A model generated the notes under the pieces. It did no database searches and was not told the DNA's origin. It was given only the letters and a program-made list of their open reading frames with translations. The position numbers and the translations under genes were made by a program. A stretch of 64,000 nucleotides of DNA from Actinomadura rifamycini DSM 43936 (GTDB lineage: Bacteria > Actinomycetota > Actinomycetes > Streptosporangiales > Streptosporangiaceae): the NCBI RefSeq assembly GCF_000425065.1, contig NZ_AULB01000007.1, positions 310,001-374,000 on the forward strand. Reading direction: 5' to 3'. Positions 26,276 to 38,918 of this stretch are shown here, in pieces. Every line of letters begins with the position of its first letter. The stretch's first letter is position 1.

Positions 26276-27550
26276 TCAGAGCTTCTTCGCGCCGATCGCC
26301 CCGGCGACGAGCGGGAAGCTCTTGGCCAGCTCCGGGCGCCAGTACTTCCAGTTGTGCATGCCCTTGCCGTACAGGCTGTCGGTGACCTGGACCCCGGCCT
26401 TCTCCGCCGCCTCGACGAAGTTGACGTTCATCCGGTAGGCGAGCCGCTCGCCGACCCGCCCGGCGTCCCAGAACGCCGCGTTCGGGTTGTCGTACTGGCC
26501 GGGCTCGCCGTTCCCGCACGAGATGTACACGCCGACGCCCTTGAGCTTGTCGACCATCACCGTCGCGTCGTGCTGCCGCCACACGTTCCGGTTCATGATC
26601 GGGTCACCCCAGATCTTCGTCCCCGCCTCCTTGTTGATGGAGACGAGGAACGCGGGGACGCCCGGCGCCGTGATGTTCAGCGCGCCGCTGTAGGACGCGA
26701 CGTACTTGAACATGCCCGTGTGCCGCTGGGCGTACGTCACCGCGCCCTGCCCGCCGGACGAGAGCCCGATCGCGGCGCGGCTCGTCCCGGCGTGGAAGTT
26801 GCGCTCCATCAGCGGGATGACCTCCTCGATGTGGAAGGTCTCCCACATCGGGATGCCGCCCTTGCCGTCGTTCCACCAGTTGCTGTACGAGCCCTGCCAG
26901 CCGCCTTCGGGCATCACGACCATCGCGTCGTAGTCGGCGACGACCTGCTCGATCTGCGAGTCCTTGGTCCAGGACTGGTAGTTGTTGTTGCCGCCGTGGT
27001 ACGCGTACACGACCGGCCAGGACCGCTTGGCGCCGGCCTTCCAGCCCTTCGGCAGCAGCAGCCGCGTCTTGACCGTCGTCCCCAGCGCCGGGGAGGCGAT
27101 GGAAACGTCGTACATGCGCGTGCCGACCTTCTTCACGCCGGTGATCTTCGCGCCGTCCGGCGCGGGCGCGTACTTGCTGGGCTTGTCGGCGGCGCCGCCC
27201 GGCAGGTGCGGCTTCTTGCCGTGGTTCGACGTGTTGGTGTCGGGGTCGTTCGAGGCCGGCTTGCCGGAGCCCGTGTTGAACGGGTCGGTGCTCATCGGCC
27301 GGTTCGGCACCTCGGGGATCGGCGACGCGGTCGGCGACGGCGAGCCTCCCGGCCCGGTCGGCGTCCCCGGTGCGCCCGGCTGCGTCGCCGGGCCGAAGGA
27401 CGGCACGGGCTGCGACGCCCCCGCGTTCTCCGAGTCCTTCGTCGGCACGCCCACGCCCGCCTGCGCGAGCCCCACCATCAGGGCGGGCAGCAGAACGGCG
27501 GCCGTCGCGGTGCCGATGACGGCGATCTTCCGATCGGTACGCTTCTTCAT
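26276..27550 (-). CDS. Secreted alpha/beta-hydrolase esterase (Ag85/esterase D-like)
   Basis: 424 residues. A Lys/Arg start and hydrophobic core (MKKRTDRK then AVIGTATAAVLLPALMVGLA) form a signal peptide or anchor. About 110 residues rich in Pro, Gly, Ser and Thr follow, a wall-spanning linker. The hydrolase domain begins near residue 135 with the HGG oxyanion segment (VVYAYHGGNNN), nucleophile Ser in GLSSGGQGA and a late GMHNWKYW histidine. Related to mycolyltransferase-like esterases; mycolates are not expected here, so a general cell-surface esterase is likelier. The ATG follows GGGGAG. A second member is encoded at 32764-33777. Confidence 0.82.
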   Translation of the reverse strand: MKKRTDRKIAVIGTATAAVLLPALMVGLAQAGVGVPTKDSENAGASQPVPSFGPATQPGAPGTPTGPGGSPSPTASPIPEVPNRPMSTDPFNTGSGKPASNDPDTNTSNHGKKPHLPGGAADKPSKYAPAPDGAKITGVKKVGTRMYDVSIASPALGTTVKTRLLLPKGWKAGAKRSWPVVYAYHGGNNNYQSWTKDSQIEQVVADYDAMVVMPEGGWQGSYSNWWNDGKGGIPMWETFHIEEVIPLMERNFHAGTSRAAIGLSSGGQGAVTYAQRHTGMFKYVASYSGALNITAPGVPAFLVSINKEAGTKIWGDPIMNRNVWRQHDATVMVDKLKGVGVYISCGNGEPGQYDNPNAAFWDAGRVGERLAYRMNVNFVEAAEKAGVQVTDSLYGKGMHNWKYWRPELAKSFPLVAGAIGAKKL

Positions 27551-27720
27551 GGGCTCCCCAGCAGCCGATGGCTCCCAGCCGGTCAGGCCGTGCTGTGCTC
27601 CGCGCCCCGGCCCGCTACTCACTCGCGGACGAAACTACTGTCCCGGACGTCCCAGTCGCAAGTATTGGCAAAGAATGCAATAGCAGCGTTACGCCGTAAA
27701 ACGAGAACGGGAACGTGCCA

Positions 27721-30467: not shown

Positions 30468-30496
30468 TTGGCACTCTCCGTGAGGGGTGCTATACG
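30468..30496 (+). promoter_or_regulatory. Strong sigma-70-type promoter of the twin-peptide operon
   Basis: TTGGCA (30468-30473), a 17-bp spacer and TATACG (30491-30496). With a start near 30503 the leader is about 80 nt. It is one of the better vegetative-type promoters in the window, suggesting abundant peptide expression. No other feature is seen in 30336-30584. Confidence 0.55.
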
Positions 30497-30584
30497 TAGA
30501 GCTACACCGCTGCGAACCGCAGCGGGACAGGGACGACCGGTATCCACCTTGGAGTCCGGGCCTGACAAGGAGAAAAGGAACCAC

Positions 30585-30851
30585 ATGAAGTCCTTCAGCT
30601 ACACCGAACTGGACATGCTCGCCGGCGAGGTTCTGCCGGAGCGCGCCGTGCTGTCCACCCTTCTCGTCGGTGGGGGCAACGAGAACGAGAACGCCAACCT
30701 GAACCTGGGCGGCCACGACGGCGACGACACCACGGTCGTCAGCGCCTGCTCCTCCAACAGCAACCAGCCGGCGACCGGCCTGCTCACCATCATCAACGGT
30801 GTGCCCGCGGCCAACTCGCAGATCTGCACGCCGGCCGCGATCCAGGGCTGA
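30585..30851 (+). CDS. RiPP-like precursor peptide 1 (88 aa)
   Basis: 88 residues with an AAGGAG ribosome site. Leader motif YTELDMLAGEVLPER at 6-20, then a Gly/Asn/Glu-rich stretch (about 29-45) and a core with Cys55 and Cys81 ending TPAAIQG. Peptide 2, 118 bp downstream, shares the leader pattern (YTxxDLxxLxGEVLPxR) and the core pattern TVV..AC...TGLL...TCxPAA, with cysteine spacing of 26 and 27. Leader plus variable hinge plus conserved core is the layout of ribosomally made, post-translationally processed peptides. There is no signal peptide of the ordinary kind. I do not recognise a named family. Confidence 0.7.
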   Translation: MKSFSYTELDMLAGEVLPERAVLSTLLVGGGNENENANLNLGGHDGDDTTVVSACSSNSNQPATGLLTIINGVPAANSQICTPAAIQG

Positions 30852-30887
30852 CCTCAGTTCTGACATCGCGGGCTTCGGCCTGCACAG

Positions 30888-30919
30888 GAAGGGCTGGCGT
30901 TCGTACGCCAGCCCTTCCC
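30888..30919 (+). terminator. Attenuator-like hairpin between the two peptide genes
   Basis: A perfect 13-bp stem (GGAAGGGCTGGCG at 30888-30900, CGCCAGCCCTTCC at 30907-30919) with a TTCGTA loop, followed by CCCTTAT. Placed 37 bp after the peptide 1 stop, it would let most transcripts end there and a minority read into peptide 2 and the protease, the usual way to overproduce a precursor. Confidence 0.75.
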
Positions 30920-30968
30920 CCTTATCGACCATGACCATCTGCTTACGGACGGACCCGAAAGCGAGCTC

Positions 30969-31196
30969 ATGAACCCTCAGCAATACACCTACGCCGACCT
31001 GGAGCGCCTCACGGGCGAGGTGCTGCCGCAGCGCCTCGCGCTGTCGGGCGGCGGCGGCGACACGGTCGTCTTCTACGCCTGCCAGGCGACGTACTCCGCG
31101 GGCACCACCGGGCTGCTCGGCACCGGGCTGCTCGCCCAGCCGCCGCACTCCACGCTCACGTGCGTCCCGGCGGCCGTCGTCCACGACAACCCATGA
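30969..31196 (+). CDS. RiPP-like precursor peptide 2 (75 aa)
   Basis: 75 residues. Leader motif YTYADLERLTGEVLPQR (6-22), a short SGGGGD hinge and a core with Cys38 and Cys65: TVVFYAC, then TTGLLGTGLL and STLTCVPAAV. The homology to peptide 1 spans both leader and core. The stop overlaps the ATG of the metalloprotease gene (ATGA), so production of the two is translationally coupled, which ties the peptides to the protease functionally. The mature product could be a disulfide- or thioether-bridged hydrophobic peptide; no dehydratase, radical SAM or cyclase gene is adjacent. Confidence 0.7.
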   Translation: MNPQQYTYADLERLTGEVLPQRLALSGGGGDTVVFYACQATYSAGTTGLLGTGLLAQPPHSTLTCVPAAVVHDNP

Positions 31197-32563
31197 GCAC
31201 GGGCCCGACCCCGACCGTGGACGGCGCGGGGCCCCCCGCGGTCCTCACCCTGCCGACCCTCGCCGACGGCACCGAGCTGGTCGGAGAGTTCAAGAACTCC
31301 GGCTACCGCGAGCCGCCGCAGCTCGTCAGCCTGCCGAACCGCCAGCTCGTCCGGCTCCCGCCGCTGCTGTTCCACGTCGTCAAGGCGCTGCACGAGCACC
31401 GGCACCTGGCCGGGACGGCCGACGTCGAGACGGCCCTCGACCGGGTGGCCGACGCCGCCTCCCGGGAGGCGGGCGCCCGGCTGACCGGCGAGCAGATCGT
31501 CTACCTCGTCGACCGCAAGCTGGCCCCGCTCGGCGTCACCACCTACAGCGACGGCACCGCGCCGCCGGTCGTCAAGGCCAACCCGTTCCTCGGGCTGAAG
31601 TTCAAGGTCGCGGTGATCCCGGAGTCGGTGAGCTCGCTGCTCGGCGGGATGTTCGCCTGGCTGCTGAGCCCCTTCGCGATCATCCCGGTGCTCGCGGCGC
31701 TCGTCGTCAGCGAGGTCTGGGTGTTCACGTCCCGCTCCGTCGTCGACGCGCTCCAGCTGACCATCGTCAATCCCGTCGGCATCCTCATGATCATGGGCTT
31801 GGGGCTGCTGTCGGTGGCGTTCCACGAGGTCGGCCACGCCGCGGCGTGCCGGTACGGGGGCGTGAAGCCGGGCGTCATGGGGTTCGGCATCTACGTGGTG
31901 TGGCCCGCGTTCTACACCGACATCACCGAGTCGTACCGGCTCGGCCGGGGCGGGCGGCTGCGCGCCGACCTGGCCGGCGTGTACTTCAACGGCGTCTTCA
32001 TCGTCGCGCTGACGCTGCTCTACCTGCAGACGGGGTACGAACCGCTCCTGGTCGCGCTGCTCTACGTCAACCTGGAGATCCTGCAGCAACTCCTGCCGAC
32101 CATGCGGTTCGACGGCTACTACATCATGTCCGACCTGGCCGGCATCCCCGACCTGTTCAAGTACATCAAGCCGATCCTGCGCCGGACGCTGCTGCGGCGC
32201 CCGCCCGACGCGCTGCTGCGGGACCTGAAGCGCTGGCCGCAGGTCTTCGTCGCGTTCTGGGTCCTCGCGGTGTTCCCCGTGATGATCCTGCAGCTCTCAC
32301 TGATCGCCTACCGGGTGCCCGAGCTGCTGGCGCTCGCCTGGGGGAAGGTGCGGCGGCTGATCGAGGACGCCGTGGCCGGCGGCGACCCGCTGGCGCTGGT
32401 CATCGCCCTGCTGCAGACACTGATGATCGTGCTGCCCGTCGCCGGGCTCGTGCTGATCCTCTACTCGGTCGGCCGGAGCCTGACGCGGTGGGCGGTCCGC
32501 TCCGTCCGCAAGCCCGCGCCCCCCGGCAAGGGTCCCGCCGCCGGCCCGGTGCCGGACGCCTGA
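31193..32563 (+). CDS. M50 intramembrane metalloprotease with N-terminal PqqD/RRE-like domain
   Basis: 456 residues. Residues about 40-115 (LVSLPNRQLVRLPPLLFHVV ... YLVDRKLAPLG) resemble a PqqD-like winged domain, the RiPP recognition element that binds leader peptides. A membrane part follows with about six hydrophobic spans. The zinc motif HEVGH lies at 211-215 inside a span, with a second-site FDGYYIMSD near 305, as in site-2-type (M50) proteases. A fusion of leader-binding and intramembrane protease domains coupled to precursor 2 suggests it binds the common leader, cleaves it in the membrane and helps release the core. It is the last gene of the unit. Confidence 0.78.
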   Translation: MSTGPTPTVDGAGPPAVLTLPTLADGTELVGEFKNSGYREPPQLVSLPNRQLVRLPPLLFHVVKALHEHRHLAGTADVETALDRVADAASREAGARLTGEQIVYLVDRKLAPLGVTTYSDGTAPPVVKANPFLGLKFKVAVIPESVSSLLGGMFAWLLSPFAIIPVLAALVVSEVWVFTSRSVVDALQLTIVNPVGILMIMGLGLLSVAFHEVGHAAACRYGGVKPGVMGFGIYVVWPAFYTDITESYRLGRGGRLRADLAGVYFNGVFIVALTLLYLQTGYEPLLVALLYVNLEILQQLLPTMRFDGYYIMSDLAGIPDLFKYIKPILRRTLLRRPPDALLRDLKRWPQVFVAFWVLAVFPVMILQLSLIAYRVPELLALAWGKVRRLIEDAVAGGDPLALVIALLQTLMIVLPVAGLVLILYSVGRSLTRWAVRSVRKPAPPGKGPAAGPVPDA

Positions 32564-32645: not shown

Positions 32646-32686
32646 CGTATAAAATGCACCGAACACACTCCAATGCATTTTATACG
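32646..32686. promoter_or_regulatory. AT-rich perfect inverted repeat, 13-bp arms
   Basis: CGTATAAAATGCA (32646-32658) and TGCATTTTATACG (32674-32686) with a 15-bp loop. It is the most AT-rich spot for kilobases and contains TATAAA. It lies between the protease gene and the secreted esterase, 78 bp before the latter. It could be an operator pair or a terminator; no T-run follows. Confidence 0.65.
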
Positions 32687-32763: not shown

Positions 32764-33777
32764 GTGTTCCGCCGCAGCGCCGCCGCCGCATGCGCGGCGA
32801 TCCTCGCCCCGACCGTCCTGTCCGCCCCGCCCGCGCTCGCCGCCCCGCCCGCCCGCGTCCCGCCGCACGCCGCCGCGCACGCCGCCGCGCACGCCGCGAC
32901 GGGCGGCGCCCGGGTGGTCGCGGAGACCCGGGTCGCCCCCCGCACCCTGGACCTCACCATCGAGTCGCCGGCGATGGGCCGGCGCGATAAGGTGCGGCTG
33001 CTCGTCCCGGACGGCTGGTCGCGGGACGCGCACCGCACCTGGCCGACGCTGTGGCTGCTGCACGGCGGCGTCGACGACCACACCGCCTGGACCCGCGACA
33101 CCGACGTCGCGGAACTCACCGCCGGCTCGGACGTCATCGTCGTCATGCCGAACGGCGGCCGGTGCGGGAACTACTCCGACTGGTGGAACTACGGCGACGG
33201 CGGCCCGCCGCGCTGGGAGACGTTCCACATGACCGAGGTCCGCGGAATTCTGGAACGCGAATACGGCGCCGGGAAGCGGCGGGCGATCGCGGGGAATTCC
33301 ATGGGCGGGCTCGGCGCGATGCTGTACGCGGCGCGCTTCCCCGGCATGTTCGAGGCCGCCGCGGCCTTCAGCGGCTACCTGCACACCCTCGACGGGCACA
33401 CCCCCGGCGACGACTCCATCGGCTGGGGCCCGTCCTTCTCCTGCCCGGGGACGGACTGGCGGCGCGTGTGGGGCGACCCCGACGACCAGGCCGCGATCTG
33501 GCGCGCGCACAACCCGACCGACCAGGCCGGACGGCTCGCCGGGGTGCGGCTGTGGGTGGCGAGCGGCGACGGCCGGCGCGGCGACCTCGGCGGGTGGCCG
33601 TTCACCGACCCGGTGGAGGCGGCGACGCACCGGCACGGCCGCGCGTTCGTCGACCGGCTCCGCGACCACGGCGTCCCGGTCACGGCGCGGTTCTACCGCG
33701 GGCAGCACACGTGGCCGTACTGGCAGCGCGAACTGCACGAGGCGTACCCGGTGCTGATGCGGGCGCTGCGCGGCTGA
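32764..33777 (+). CDS. Secreted Ag85-like alpha/beta-hydrolase esterase
   Basis: 337 residues. A classical signal peptide (MFRRSAAAACAAILAPTVLS then ALAAP) is followed by an Ala/His repeat (AAAHAAAHAA). The hydrolase domain has LLHGG, nucleophile GNSMGG, and a late histidine in RGQHTWPYW. It is homologous to the esterase at 26276-27550 (shared SDWWN-type loop and ETFH segment) but lacks the long linker. The GTG start has GAAAGG upstream and two palindromes close by (32646-32743), suggesting tight control. The substrate is unknown; a cell-envelope ester is likely. Confidence 0.82.
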   Translation: MFRRSAAAACAAILAPTVLSAPPALAAPPARVPPHAAAHAAAHAATGGARVVAETRVAPRTLDLTIESPAMGRRDKVRLLVPDGWSRDAHRTWPTLWLLHGGVDDHTAWTRDTDVAELTAGSDVIVVMPNGGRCGNYSDWWNYGDGGPPRWETFHMTEVRGILEREYGAGKRRAIAGNSMGGLGAMLYAARFPGMFEAAAAFSGYLHTLDGHTPGDDSIGWGPSFSCPGTDWRRVWGDPDDQAAIWRAHNPTDQAGRLAGVRLWVASGDGRRGDLGGWPFTDPVEAATHRHGRAFVDRLRDHGVPVTARFYRGQHTWPYWQRELHEAYPVLMRALRG

Positions 33778-35332: not shown

Positions 35333-36196
35333 ATGGGCGCGGCAACGGAACCGGACCGGGCGATCGACACCGAACGCTATCCCCTCGCCGCGCCGGCGAG
35401 CGCGCGCTGGGACGAGGTCGTCTCCGCGACCCGGGCCGAACTGGCGGAGACCGGCTGCTGCGTGCTGCCCGACTTCGTCCGCCCGGAATGGCAGGAGACG
35501 CTCCGGGCCGAATGCGCGTCCGTCGAACGGGACGCGCATTTCGACGTCGAAACGGTGAACGCCTACAACACCGACGTGCACGCGCCGCTGCCGGAGGGCC
35601 ACCCCGGACGGCTCACCGTCGAGCGGGGGAACGCGTTCGTCGCCCGCGACCGCCTGCCGCCGCACCACATCGTCCCCCGGCTCTATTCGAACCCGCTTTT
35701 CCGGCATTTCGTCGCGAGCTGTTTCGGGCTGCCGGAGGTGCACGAGCTGGCCGACCCGCTGTCGGGGCTCGTGCTGAACGTCGTCCGGCCGGGGATGGAG
35801 CACCCCTGGCACTTCGACACGAACGAATTCACGGTCAGCCTGCTGACGCAGGAGGCGGAGGGCGGGGGCGTCTTCGAGTACTGCCCGAACATCAGGTCCG
35901 CGGAGGCGGAGAACTTCGACGACGTGCGGCGCGTGCTCACCGGCGAGGGCGCGCACCTGGTCCGCGGCCTCACGCTGCGGCCCGGCGACCTCCAGCTGTT
36001 CAAGGGGCGCTACTCGCTGCACCGGGTGAGCGCCGTCCGCGGCGCGACGGCCCGGCACACCGCGATCTTCGCCTACAGCGAGCGCCCGGGGGTGGTGGGC
36101 AGCGTGGCCCGCACCCGGCAGCTCTTCGGCCGCGTGCTGCCCGAGCATCACGCCGCCGAAGGCCGCGCCGTCCGGGTGGACGCCCTGCTCGACTGA
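35333..36196 (+). CDS. 2-oxoglutarate/Fe(II) oxygenase, HalD/ArpA-like
   Basis: 287 residues. The facial triad is visible as H160 and D162 (PWHFDTNEF) and H230 (YSLHRVSAV), with Arg residues 6-11 positions later for 2-oxoglutarate. Sequence style (LSGLVLNVVRPGMEHPWHFD, LRPGDLQLFKGR) matches the HalD/ArpA group that contains the amino-acid halogenase BesD. Those halogenases have Gly in place of the Asp, so this one should hydroxylate, not chlorinate. It is the first gene of a unit with a methyltransferase and a carnitine-type acyltransferase, pointing to hydroxylation of an amino acid or betaine. The ATG follows GGCGGAAGGAC. Confidence 0.82.
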   Translation: MGAATEPDRAIDTERYPLAAPASARWDEVVSATRAELAETGCCVLPDFVRPEWQETLRAECASVERDAHFDVETVNAYNTDVHAPLPEGHPGRLTVERGNAFVARDRLPPHHIVPRLYSNPLFRHFVASCFGLPEVHELADPLSGLVLNVVRPGMEHPWHFDTNEFTVSLLTQEAEGGGVFEYCPNIRSAEAENFDDVRRVLTGEGAHLVRGLTLRPGDLQLFKGRYSLHRVSAVRGATARHTAIFAYSERPGVVGSVARTRQLFGRVLPEHHAAEGRAVRVDALLD

Positions 36197-36266
36197 CCGC
36201 TCCCCTCCGCCGGCCCCCTCCTTCGAGCCCGTTCCTCCAGCCCCCCGTGAGGAAGGACCGCGATCC

Positions 36267-37076
36267 GTGCGCGTCGACACGTCCGGAAAGATCTCGCTCG
36301 ACCACATCTACACGCAGCCCGACCCCCGCGCCTACTTCACGACGCTGCGGGACCTCGACTACCGCATCCCCCAGCTCGCCCGCCCGCACTTCGCCGCGCT
36401 GCTCGACGAGTACCGCGCGGCGCGGAACGTCGCCGTCCCGACCGTGCTCGACATCGGCTGCTCCTACGGCATCAACGCGGCGCTGCTGAAATACGGGATC
36501 ACGATGGGCGAGCTGTACGAGCGCTACAGCGGCGCCGACGCCCACCGGCGGACCCGCGACGCGCTGCTGGCCCGCGACCGCGAGCTGAGCGGCCGCGCCG
36601 CGCGCACCGCCCCCGCGCGCTTCATCGGCCTGGACGCCTCCGGCAACGCCCTCGCCTACGCGCTCGACGCCGGGTTCCTGGACGGCGCCGTCCACGCCGA
36701 CCTCGAGAGCGACGACCCGACGGGCCCGCAGCGGGACCTGCTCGCGGAGACCGACCTCGTCGTCTCCACCGGCTGCCTCGGCTACGTCACCGAGCGGACG
36801 ATCGCCCGCGTCCTCGCCGCGTGCGGCGCGCGGCGCCCGTGGATGGCGCACTTCATCCTGCGGATGTTCCCGTTCGCCCCGATCGCCGAGACGCTCGCCG
36901 CGGCCGGCTACGAGACCGTCCGGAGCGAGGGCCTGTTCCGGCAGCGGCGGTTCGCCACGCCGCAGGAGCGCGAGAACGTGCTGCTGCGGCTCGCGGACGC
37001 CGGGATCGACCCGGGCGGTCTGGAGACCGACGGCTGGTACTACGCCGAACTGCACGTGTCCCGCCCCCGCCCCTGA
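36267..37076 (+). CDS. Class I SAM-dependent methyltransferase
   Basis: 269 residues from a GTG with GAGGAAGG upstream. Motif I is VLDIGCSYGINAALL (about 60-74), motif II is around FIGLDASGNALAYA, and a later DLVVSTGCLGYV fits motif IV. The C-terminal region ends in a TDGWYYAELHVSRP strand. The substrate is not evident. As the middle gene between a 2-oxoglutarate oxygenase and a carnitine-type acyltransferase, N-methylation of an amino group to make a betaine is an attractive possibility. Gaps of 70 and 60 bp suggest a common transcript. Confidence 0.8.
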   Translation: MRVDTSGKISLDHIYTQPDPRAYFTTLRDLDYRIPQLARPHFAALLDEYRAARNVAVPTVLDIGCSYGINAALLKYGITMGELYERYSGADAHRRTRDALLARDRELSGRAARTAPARFIGLDASGNALAYALDAGFLDGAVHADLESDDPTGPQRDLLAETDLVVSTGCLGYVTERTIARVLAACGARRPWMAHFILRMFPFAPIAETLAAAGYETVRSEGLFRQRRFATPQERENVLLRLADAGIDPGGLETDGWYYAELHVSRPRP

Positions 37077-37136
37077 CGCGCGCCGGCGCCGGCCGGCACT
37101 CCCCCGACCCCACGACCCGGAAACCGAGGACCGACG

Positions 37137-38918
37137 TTGAACGAACCCTCCACCCGCACCTTCGGCAACGAGGACGCGCTGCCGCGGGTGCCGCTGCCCG
37201 CGCTCGACGAGACCCGCGAGCGGTTCCTGCGCTGGTGCGCGCCCCTGCTCACCGCGGACGAGCTCGCACGGACCGAGGCGGCGCTGGACGAGTTCGTCCG
37301 CCCGGACGGGCCGGGGCGGCGGCTGCACGCGGAACTCGAACGGTACGACCGGAGCGAGGGCGTGCACAGCTGGCTCGACACGTTCTGGCCGTACCGGTAC
37401 CTGGGGCGCCGCGACCGCATCGCGCTCAACGCGAACTTCTTCTTCCTGTTCGGCGACTCCGGGGAGACGCAGGTCGCGCGGGCGGCCGGGCTGATCGCGG
37501 GCGCGCTGGACTACAAGCTGCGGCTGGACGACGAGCGAGTGCCGCCGGTCGTGCAGCGGGGGCGCCCGCTGTCGATGGAGCAGAACAAGTTCCTGTTCTC
37601 GACGACGCGGATCCCCGGGCCCGAGCAGGACACCGTCCGCGCCCCCTACAGCGACGCGTGGCCGGGGCCGTCGACCGCCCGGCACATCGTCGTGTTCTTC
37701 CGCGGGAACATGTTCCGGATGGACGTGATCGGCCCGGACGGCCGCCCGCACACGCTCGACGAGCTCGCCGCGGGCCTCGGGACGGTCCTGAAAGCGGAGC
37801 CGTCGCCGGAGCCGTCCCCGGGGCACCTGACGACGAAGGCGCGGGCCGAGTGGGCGGCGAGCCGGGACGCGCTGCTCGCCCTCGACCCCCGCAACGGGCG
37901 CGCCCTCGACACCGTGGAGACCGCCCTGTTCTGCGTCTGCCTCGAGGACTTCGCGCCCGCGTCGGCGCAGGAGGCGTGCGACGACCTGCTGCACGGCGAC
38001 AGTGCGAACCGCTGGTTCGACAAGGCGGTCTCGTTCGTCGTCTTCGGGGACGGGACGGCCGGCATCAACGTGGAGCACTGCGGGCTGGACGGCACGACGA
38101 TCCTCAGCTTCGTGGACGCGCTGCTCGGCGAGCCCGCGGCGGAGCAGTCGCGGCGGTCGGGCGCCCGCGGCCAGGGCCTCCCGGCGGTCGAGCCGATCGA
38201 GTTCGTCCTCGACGACGCCCTGCGCGCGGACGTCCGGGCGGCGGGCGCGGCGTTCGCCGACTACGCCGCCGCGACCGCGACGGCCTGCGTCCCGTTCGAC
38301 GACTTCGGCTCGCGCGACGCGAAGGCCCTCGGGATGTCGCCGGACGCGTTCGTCCAGATGGCGTACCAGCTCGCGCACAAGCGCGCGAAGGGCCGGATCG
38401 GCGCGACGTACGAGTCGATCGCGACGCGGCAGTACCGGCGGGGCCGCACGGAGGCGATGCGGGTCGTGACGCCGGAGGTGCTGCGGTTCGTCGAGGCCAT
38501 GGACGACCCGGACGCGGGGGCGGACGCCCGCCGGGACGCGTTCCGCGCCGCCGCCGACGCGCACGTCCGGCGCGCGAAGGAGTGCCAGTCGGGGCGGGCG
38601 CCGGAGCAGCACCTCTGGGAGCTGCAGCTCATCGCGAAGCGGCGGGGGGACACCGAGCCGCTGCCGCTGTTCGACTCCCCCGGCTGGACCGTCATGCGGG
38701 ACGACTACCTGAGCACCAGTTCGGCGCCGTCGACGAACATCCGGTACTTCGGGTTCGGGTCGACGAGCGAGCAGTGCATCGGCGTCGCGTACGTCCTGCT
38801 CCCGGACCGGTTCAACCTGTACCTGAGCACGCCGCGCCCGGTCGCGGACGCGATGTACGACTTCGCCGACCGCCTCCGCGGCGCCGTCCGGGAGCTGCGG
38901 GAGCTGCTGTCCGGCTGA
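37137..38918 (+). CDS. Choline/carnitine O-acyltransferase family enzyme
   Basis: 593 residues, the normal length for the family and unusual in bacteria. The catalytic His is in FGDGTAGINVEHCGLDGTT, the family TYES block is GATYESIATRQY, and the carnitine-enzyme STS motif is in YLSTSSAP followed by a FGFGS..CIGVAYVLLPDRFNLYLST end. At the substrate-selecting triplet it reads Thr-Glu-Ala, closer to carnitine (TET) than to choline (VDN) enzymes as I remember them. It should move an acyl group between CoA and the hydroxyl of a quaternary amine. The start is TTG at 37137 after CCGAGGACC. It is the last gene of a three-gene unit. Confidence 0.83.
   Translation: MNEPSTRTFGNEDALPRVPLPALDETRERFLRWCAPLLTADELARTEAALDEFVRPDGPGRRLHAELERYDRSEGVHSWLDTFWPYRYLGRRDRIALNANFFFLFGDSGETQVARAAGLIAGALDYKLRLDDERVPPVVQRGRPLSMEQNKFLFSTTRIPGPEQDTVRAPYSDAWPGPSTARHIVVFFRGNMFRMDVIGPDGRPHTLDELAAGLGTVLKAEPSPEPSPGHLTTKARAEWAASRDALLALDPRNGRALDTVETALFCVCLEDFAPASAQEACDDLLHGDSANRWFDKAVSFVVFGDGTAGINVEHCGLDGTTILSFVDALLGEPAAEQSRRSGARGQGLPAVEPIEFVLDDALRADVRAAGAAFADYAAATATACVPFDDFGSRDAKALGMSPDAFVQMAYQLAHKRAKGRIGATYESIATRQYRRGRTEAMRVVTPEVLRFVEAMDDPDAGADARRDAFRAAADAHVRRAKECQSGRAPEQHLWELQLIAKRRGDTEPLPLFDSPGWTVMRDDYLSTSSAPSTNIRYFGFGSTSEQCIGVAYVLLPDRFNLYLSTPRPVADAMYDFADRLRGAVRELRELLSG

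Follow-up and report, generated by a model that had tools for sequence, protein, structure and literature searches.

Gene layout and regulatory elements of the locus

The window, i.e., the whole 64,000-nucleotide stretch of the Actinomadura rifamycini DSM 43936 genome that was analysed (contig NZ_AULB01000007.1, positions 310,001 to 374,000), contains two small genes, here called pepA and pepB, followed by a gene for an M50/site-2 intramembrane protease, and all three are real genes (Table 1). As the first-pass annotation had proposed, the adjacent small open reading frames (ORFs) encode peptides with a common leader and with cysteines 26 (pepA) and 27 (pepB) residues apart, and the end of pepB overlaps the start of the protease gene by an ATGA at 31193-31196. 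That annotation had let the system begin at 30468; a promoter-like site does lie there, but the position is that of its -35 box and no gene begins at it. The pepA product ends in IQG and the pepB product in DNP, and other copies end mostly in Gly, His, Ser or Asp. Neither peptide had a match in Pfam or NCBIfam, and a search of the window against Rfam at the gathering threshold returned nothing.

Table 1. Genes, domains and putative regulatory elements of the peptide locus (positions within the window).
Feature	Position	Strand	Description
Promoter-like site of pepA	30468..30496	+	TTGGCA - 17 bp - TATACG, read from the sequence
5′-UTR hairpin	30507..30525	+	near the predicted transcript start; folding and covariation
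CCGG...CCGG element	30536..30560	+	in the 5′-UTR; possibly a second stem; near-invariant pairs, 45 sequences
pepA	30585..30851	+	precursor of 88 aa; leader to about residue 28, then an Asn/Gly spacer and a core with two Cys (C55, C81)
A-B hairpin	30887..30918	+	strong hairpin in the pepA-pepB interval; terminator-like or attenuator
pepB	30969..31196	+	75-aa precursor; related leader, better conserved two-Cys core (C38, C65)
Protease gene	31193..32563	+	predicted RRE - M50/site-2 intramembrane protease, 456 aa
RRE (PqqD-like) domain, predicted	31268..31531	+	N-terminal, about residues 26-113; AlphaFold2 pLDDT 87
HEVGH zinc site	31823..31837	+	residues 211-215, within predicted helix 194-221
Distal D307-G308 motif	32111..32116	+	invariant in 24 relatives

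The promoter claimed for the locus gained support from comparison, which revealed a conserved promoter-like pair, TTGGC(C/A)..TGCTATACGTAGAG, upstream of nearly all of the 52 pepA copies, unlinked ones included. A heat-shock CIRCE-like operator at the TTGGCACTC box was considered and dropped by eye; relatives read TTGGCCAC there, without the inverted arm. The covarying 5′-UTR hairpin is an addition to the first-pass annotation. It folded in all 50 UTRs tested, i.e., those extracted by pattern (median z -3.6); its stem sequences varied, and 27 two-sided pair changes were counted versus 7.3 ± 3.3 in shuffles. The near-invariance of the pairs in the CCGG...CCGG element by itself does not prove pairing. 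The hairpin that had been called an attenuator was located between pepA and pepB and recurred in 38 of the 38 loci examined (median z -6.0), but it is named terminator-like here because a canonical U-run is absent from it. The promoter, the 5′ hairpin and the A-B hairpin would fit an expression of pepA above that of pepB and the protease.

Several further elements were observed around the locus. Two secreted-esterase-like genes (26276-27622 and 32764-33777) lie one on each side of it, and a perfect 13-bp AT-rich inverted repeat (CGTATAAAATGCA / TGCATTTTATACG) occupies 32646-32684, upstream of an esterase gene, with an equivalent at only one (L031) of 38 loci. A likely operon at 35333-38918 encodes a HalD-like protein (2-oxoglutarate halogenase/hydroxylase fold), a methyltransferase and a choline/carnitine acyltransferase, in a gene order kept in most Actinomadura loci.

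Conservation of the trio and divergence of the peptide cores

The first-pass annotation had suggested examining the co-occurrence of the peptides with the protease, and this was done in 60 genomes of the genus. The results showed that the protease, pepA and pepB, each searched separately, were present in an identical set of 46 genomes, and that the identical 14 genomes lacked all three; such agreement would arise by chance about once in 1.7 x 10^13, a figure that ignores shared ancestry. Both peptide types were also found in 38 of the 38 loci of a larger set (L031-L068; 37 from Actinomadura and one from Saccharopolyspora flava), four of which had 2, 3 or 5 copies of pepA; in S. flava, the A gene was on the opposite strand and the B gene downstream of the protease. 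The flanking genes (LLM oxidoreductase, ferritin, esterase, SpoIIE and the halogenase-like operon) were syntenic in most Actinomadura; this synteny was lost around L059, L063, L064 and L068, which implied that A-B-protease is the conserved unit.

Extra or unlinked copies of pepA also occur in the genus. Seven of them, distant from any protease gene, keep the leader and, largely, the promoter and UTR, and the occurrence of such copies in genomes with one protease implied that the protease acts in trans. No obvious partner enzyme was found near these seven genes, and no tailoring enzyme or transporter was conserved with the trio in the 38 loci, in divergent loci, around the unlinked pepA genes or in the annotated stretch of a Streptomyces changanensis plasmid. 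The latter holds only precursors and protease, namely two pepA-type genes and a protease gene, all annotated as hypothetical, and no pepB was seen on it. The earlier remark that no classical RiPP modifying enzyme is nearby therefore stands, none being conserved at the locus. The idea of a three-gene system is sound for the genus, across which the trio co-occurs, but the strict trio is not universal, as shown by the plasmid and by relatives in the class with other cargo.

The leader common to pepA and pepB reads Y-T-x-[ED]-L-x-x-L-x-G-E-V-L-P-x-R-x-x-L-S. In 46 pepA genes, mean pairwise identity was 0.86 in the leader and 0.44 in the two-Cys core, and pN/pS was lowest in the leader (0.36) and higher in the core (1.26) and the spacer (1.53), values of which only the within-gene contrast is used because high GC3 depresses pS. 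Two cysteines were present in every peptide copy, with a spacing of 22-28 in A and of 27 in B (35 of 38 B-type peptides, the other three carrying an extra Cys). The maximum 19-residue hydropathy was about 1.5, remaining below 1.6 in all 84 peptides, which indicated precursors without a transmembrane segment. The reading of both ORFs as precursor-like peptides with a common leader was supported.

The correlation with protease identity was weak for core A (r 0.26) and reached 0.49 for core B and 0.59 for the leader; distinct core types were seen alongside 80% identical proteases, and pepA cores differed strongly between close relatives. These results, along with the multiplication of pepA to as many as five copies, the existence of a plasmid copy and the antimicrobial activity of epipeptides (PMC7614699) and TMcin (PMC13252029), lend some plausibility, if rather less than an even chance, to a role in competition or recognition within the genus, bacteriocin-like or pheromone-like, with pepA as the variable specificity peptide and pepB as its conserved partner. 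On the other side, no recognisable immunity or receptor gene was conserved, and a pN/pS above 1 is no proof of positive selection where high GC limits synonymous change.

Predicted folds of the protease and comparison with known systems

The first-pass annotation had taken the N-terminus of the protease for a PqqD-type domain and proposed a structure prediction. AlphaFold2 predicted a beta3-alpha3 fold, three strands followed by three helices, and the top VIA-align matches of this domain were leader-bound RREs, including TbiB1 (5v1v, Z 7.1 over 85 residues, 3.1 Å), lasso B1 (6jx3, Z 7.1) and TbtB (6ec8, Z 6.6), with a sactipeptide enzyme and ThcOx among the remaining matches. Winged-helix DNA-binding domains came next at Z 5-6, so the call of an RRE fold rests on context as well. 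The N-terminus is predicted to be an RRE of PqqD-like fold with putative leader binding; unlike TbiB1 and lasso B1, it is fused to a membrane protease and not to a maturase. The membrane part matched SpoIVFB (8vjm, Z 8.3) and mjS2P (3b4r, Z 7.8), the first unrelated row standing at Z 4.4, and is predicted to have a site-2 protease fold, in support of the M50 assignment made earlier. The structural similarity is middling (Z 7-8) and was seen with VIA-align, Foldseek by itself giving no significant match for either the full protease model or the N-terminal domain.

The placement of HEVGH in a membrane span agreed with the predicted helix around it, and F210, H211, E212, G214 and H215 were invariant across 24 divergent relatives. 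The D307-G308 pair presumably supplies the third zinc ligand expected of an M50 protease, a role assigned from the family. The protease scored 12.6 bits against Pfam PF02163, below the cut-off, and had no match to PF11667. Its scores with the models of the daptide leader peptidase (NF041824) and of the epipeptide protease (NF058609) were 82 bits (cut-off 300) and 53 bits (cut-off 225), respectively.

Given the distant relationship to the daptide leader peptidase, the original suggestion of a system that matches no known family was not supported. Fusions of an RRE to a site-2 protease beside short ORFs are what led to the daptides, in which the RRE-dependent intramembrane protease MpaP is the proposed leader remover (PMC10036551), and the kind is therefore already known. 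The trio would work like the daptide, epipeptide and TMcin systems, yet it belongs to none of them. It shares with the daptides the fused protease, several adjoining short precursors and, in the leader, a related E-L-x-x-[ML] motif. It is not a daptide system, because the protease falls below the NF041824 cut-off, the peptides, with their two-Cys cores, lack the invariant C-terminal Thr, and no daptide genes lie nearby. Specifically, no dehydrogenase, aminotransferase, RRE-DUF or ABC transporter of the daptide set was found among the scanned window genes (Pfam/NCBIfam), neither the surroundings of the divergent loci nor the annotated part of the plasmid had conserved candidates, and the methyltransferase at 36267 belongs to another operon. 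By comparison, a true daptide control found by the same search (L142) scored 507 bits against NF041824 and has an MQELEAMEAPG leader, a C-terminal Thr, and an ABC transporter and further enzymes beside the protease.

The epipeptide operon (YydFGHIJ / EpeXEPAB) likewise has an M50 protease, EpeP/YydH, thought to cleave the peptide and to export it (PMC10885120), but it also carries an ABC transporter and a radical SAM epimerase, and no such epimerase was found among the neighbours scanned here. In the TMcin system (TmcA/TmcP), a site-2 protease removes the leader and a disulfide links two conserved cysteines that lie about 25 residues from each other (PMC13252029); it differs from the trio in its transmembrane helix, its DsbA-like, escort and ABC transporter genes and its PF11667 protease, and a TMcin-like transmembrane core was rejected for the trio on hydropathy. 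No modification-free RRE-M50 system was found in a search of the openly available literature.

In all three known systems the membrane protease is paired with tailoring genes (PMC10036551, PMC10885120, PMC13252029), which raises the alternative that the product of the trio is a genuine RiPP. Enzymes from other parts of the genome would then modify the core, and the protease would perform the last step only. The richness of the cores in Ser, Thr, Asn and Cys and the company of the daptide protease at L142 would be compatible with this alternative, but we regard it as unlikely, since no enzyme was co-conserved in the 38 loci or near the unlinked pepA genes and the plasmid copy comprises precursors and protease only.

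The wider family and a proposed maturation route

Relatives of the protease were detected in 70 of 395 genomes across the class. At 26 of 29 distant-relative loci, an ORF whose leader fits LP-x-[RK]-x-x-[LMVAI]-[SG] lies just upstream of the protease gene on the same strand, compared with 8 of 656 control pieces of equal size, for a pattern composed after examples had been seen. Several types of cargo were distinguished: two-Cys peptides (L128, L129, L151-L153), short EELPDRE-QMSLINANLAAPVNAAVAANV peptides, short ELLPGRE or ELLPSRE peptides, and repetitive, Ala/Asn-rich LPDKE-VVSLLDLNADLDLA proteins of 230-280 aa. The trio is one branch of a form of peptide maturation that is widespread in actinobacteria, mostly unannotated, and has no visible modifying enzyme or exporter.

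Individual relatives showed additional features. Widespread LPDKEVVS-LLDLNADLDLAIDAAAPIDLAVAANANVAAPIDAAV... proteins of 230-280 aa, repetitive in sequence, adjoin RRE-M50 proteases at several loci within L155-L175; those scanned had no convincing match to a family. The ELLPSRE-type loci L130, L131 and L132 share a secreted-looking protein (WTKSACVVLA...), and L130 and L132 have an HTH regulator near the protease, possibly an extra partner in this subfamily. A protein at L133:6942-8342 starts with an RRE-like domain closely resembling that of the neighbouring protease and ends in the same ectodomain, with no M50 part, and a separate secreted protein at L181:7839-8531 resembles the C-terminal ectodomain fused to the protease elsewhere, e.g., at L134.

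The diversity of cargo bears on two further explanations. Site-2 proteases, as is established for the M50 family, frequently cut membrane-bound regulators, and the small ORFs might be regulators of a protease that has another membrane substrate. This is highly improbable, as the leader/core build, the variation in copy number, the unlinked pepA genes and the unrelated cargo behind the same leader motif all fit substrates better. The cargo might also be cell-surface or matrix (amyloid-like) material, delivered by a general leader-guided route for surface peptides and acting neither as bacteriocin nor as signal. Consistent with this, N/D-x-N/D alternation exceeded that of shuffles in the Actinomadura peptides and the long cargo (0 of 1000 shuffles), and some relatives carry the long repetitive proteins. 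However, the alternation did not exceed shuffles in the short cargo types, and was rejected as a signature of all cargo; divergence of the kind seen among pepA cores is unusual in a structural protein; and chaplins are present in 59 of 60 genus genomes regardless of the trio. The surface reading is doubtful. Replacement of chaplins by the trio was dropped, chaplins being unlinked to its presence or loss.

The trio is a real, conserved and unannotated peptide-maturation system, in which leader-guided cleavage is well supported by inference. In the most probable course of events, the RRE captures the leader, the protease removes it at the membrane, and unmodified, disulfide-bonded peptides are released. 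The pepA and pepB products would be precursors whose leader (Y-x-[ED]-L-x-x-L-x-x-E-V-L-P-x-R-x-x-L-S) is bound by the RRE on the cytoplasmic side and passed on to the intramembrane zinc active site, which is of the site-2 type. The cut would fall shortly after the LPxR-x-x-LS motif, ahead of the Gly/Asn-rich spacer, and the products of about 45-60 residues would exit the cell, each forming one disulfide, with no tailoring step required. Through its own promoter, the protective 5′ hairpin and the A-B hairpin, pepA may be expressed more highly than pepB and the protease. The computed support for this route consists of gene conservation, co-occurrence, the leader/core split, the predicted RRE and site-2 folds, the conserved regulatory elements and the absence of conserved neighbours. 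Some points count against it: no exporter or disulfide enzyme was conserved at the locus, the precursors lack a transmembrane segment, and the protein closest in structure, SpoIVFB, delivers its product to the cytoplasm.

A more far-reaching version, somewhat improbable at present, would extend the route throughout the actinobacteria, with one RRE-site-2 protease recognising the LP-x-[RK] leader and, in the absence of a transporter of its own, both cleaving and releasing the cargo. This cargo would be unmodified and would range from disulfide peptides of 45 residues up to repetitive proteins of 280 residues. RRE domains serve as markers of peptide-modifying pathways; as the protease is the RRE's only partner here, the trio may represent RRE-guided proteolysis, perhaps with export, in its barest form. 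Our results equip actinobacterial genes recorded as hypothetical proteins with a defined leader motif and with several types of cargo, and they make directly testable the maturation and release of a soluble peptide by a site-2 protease without a transporter.
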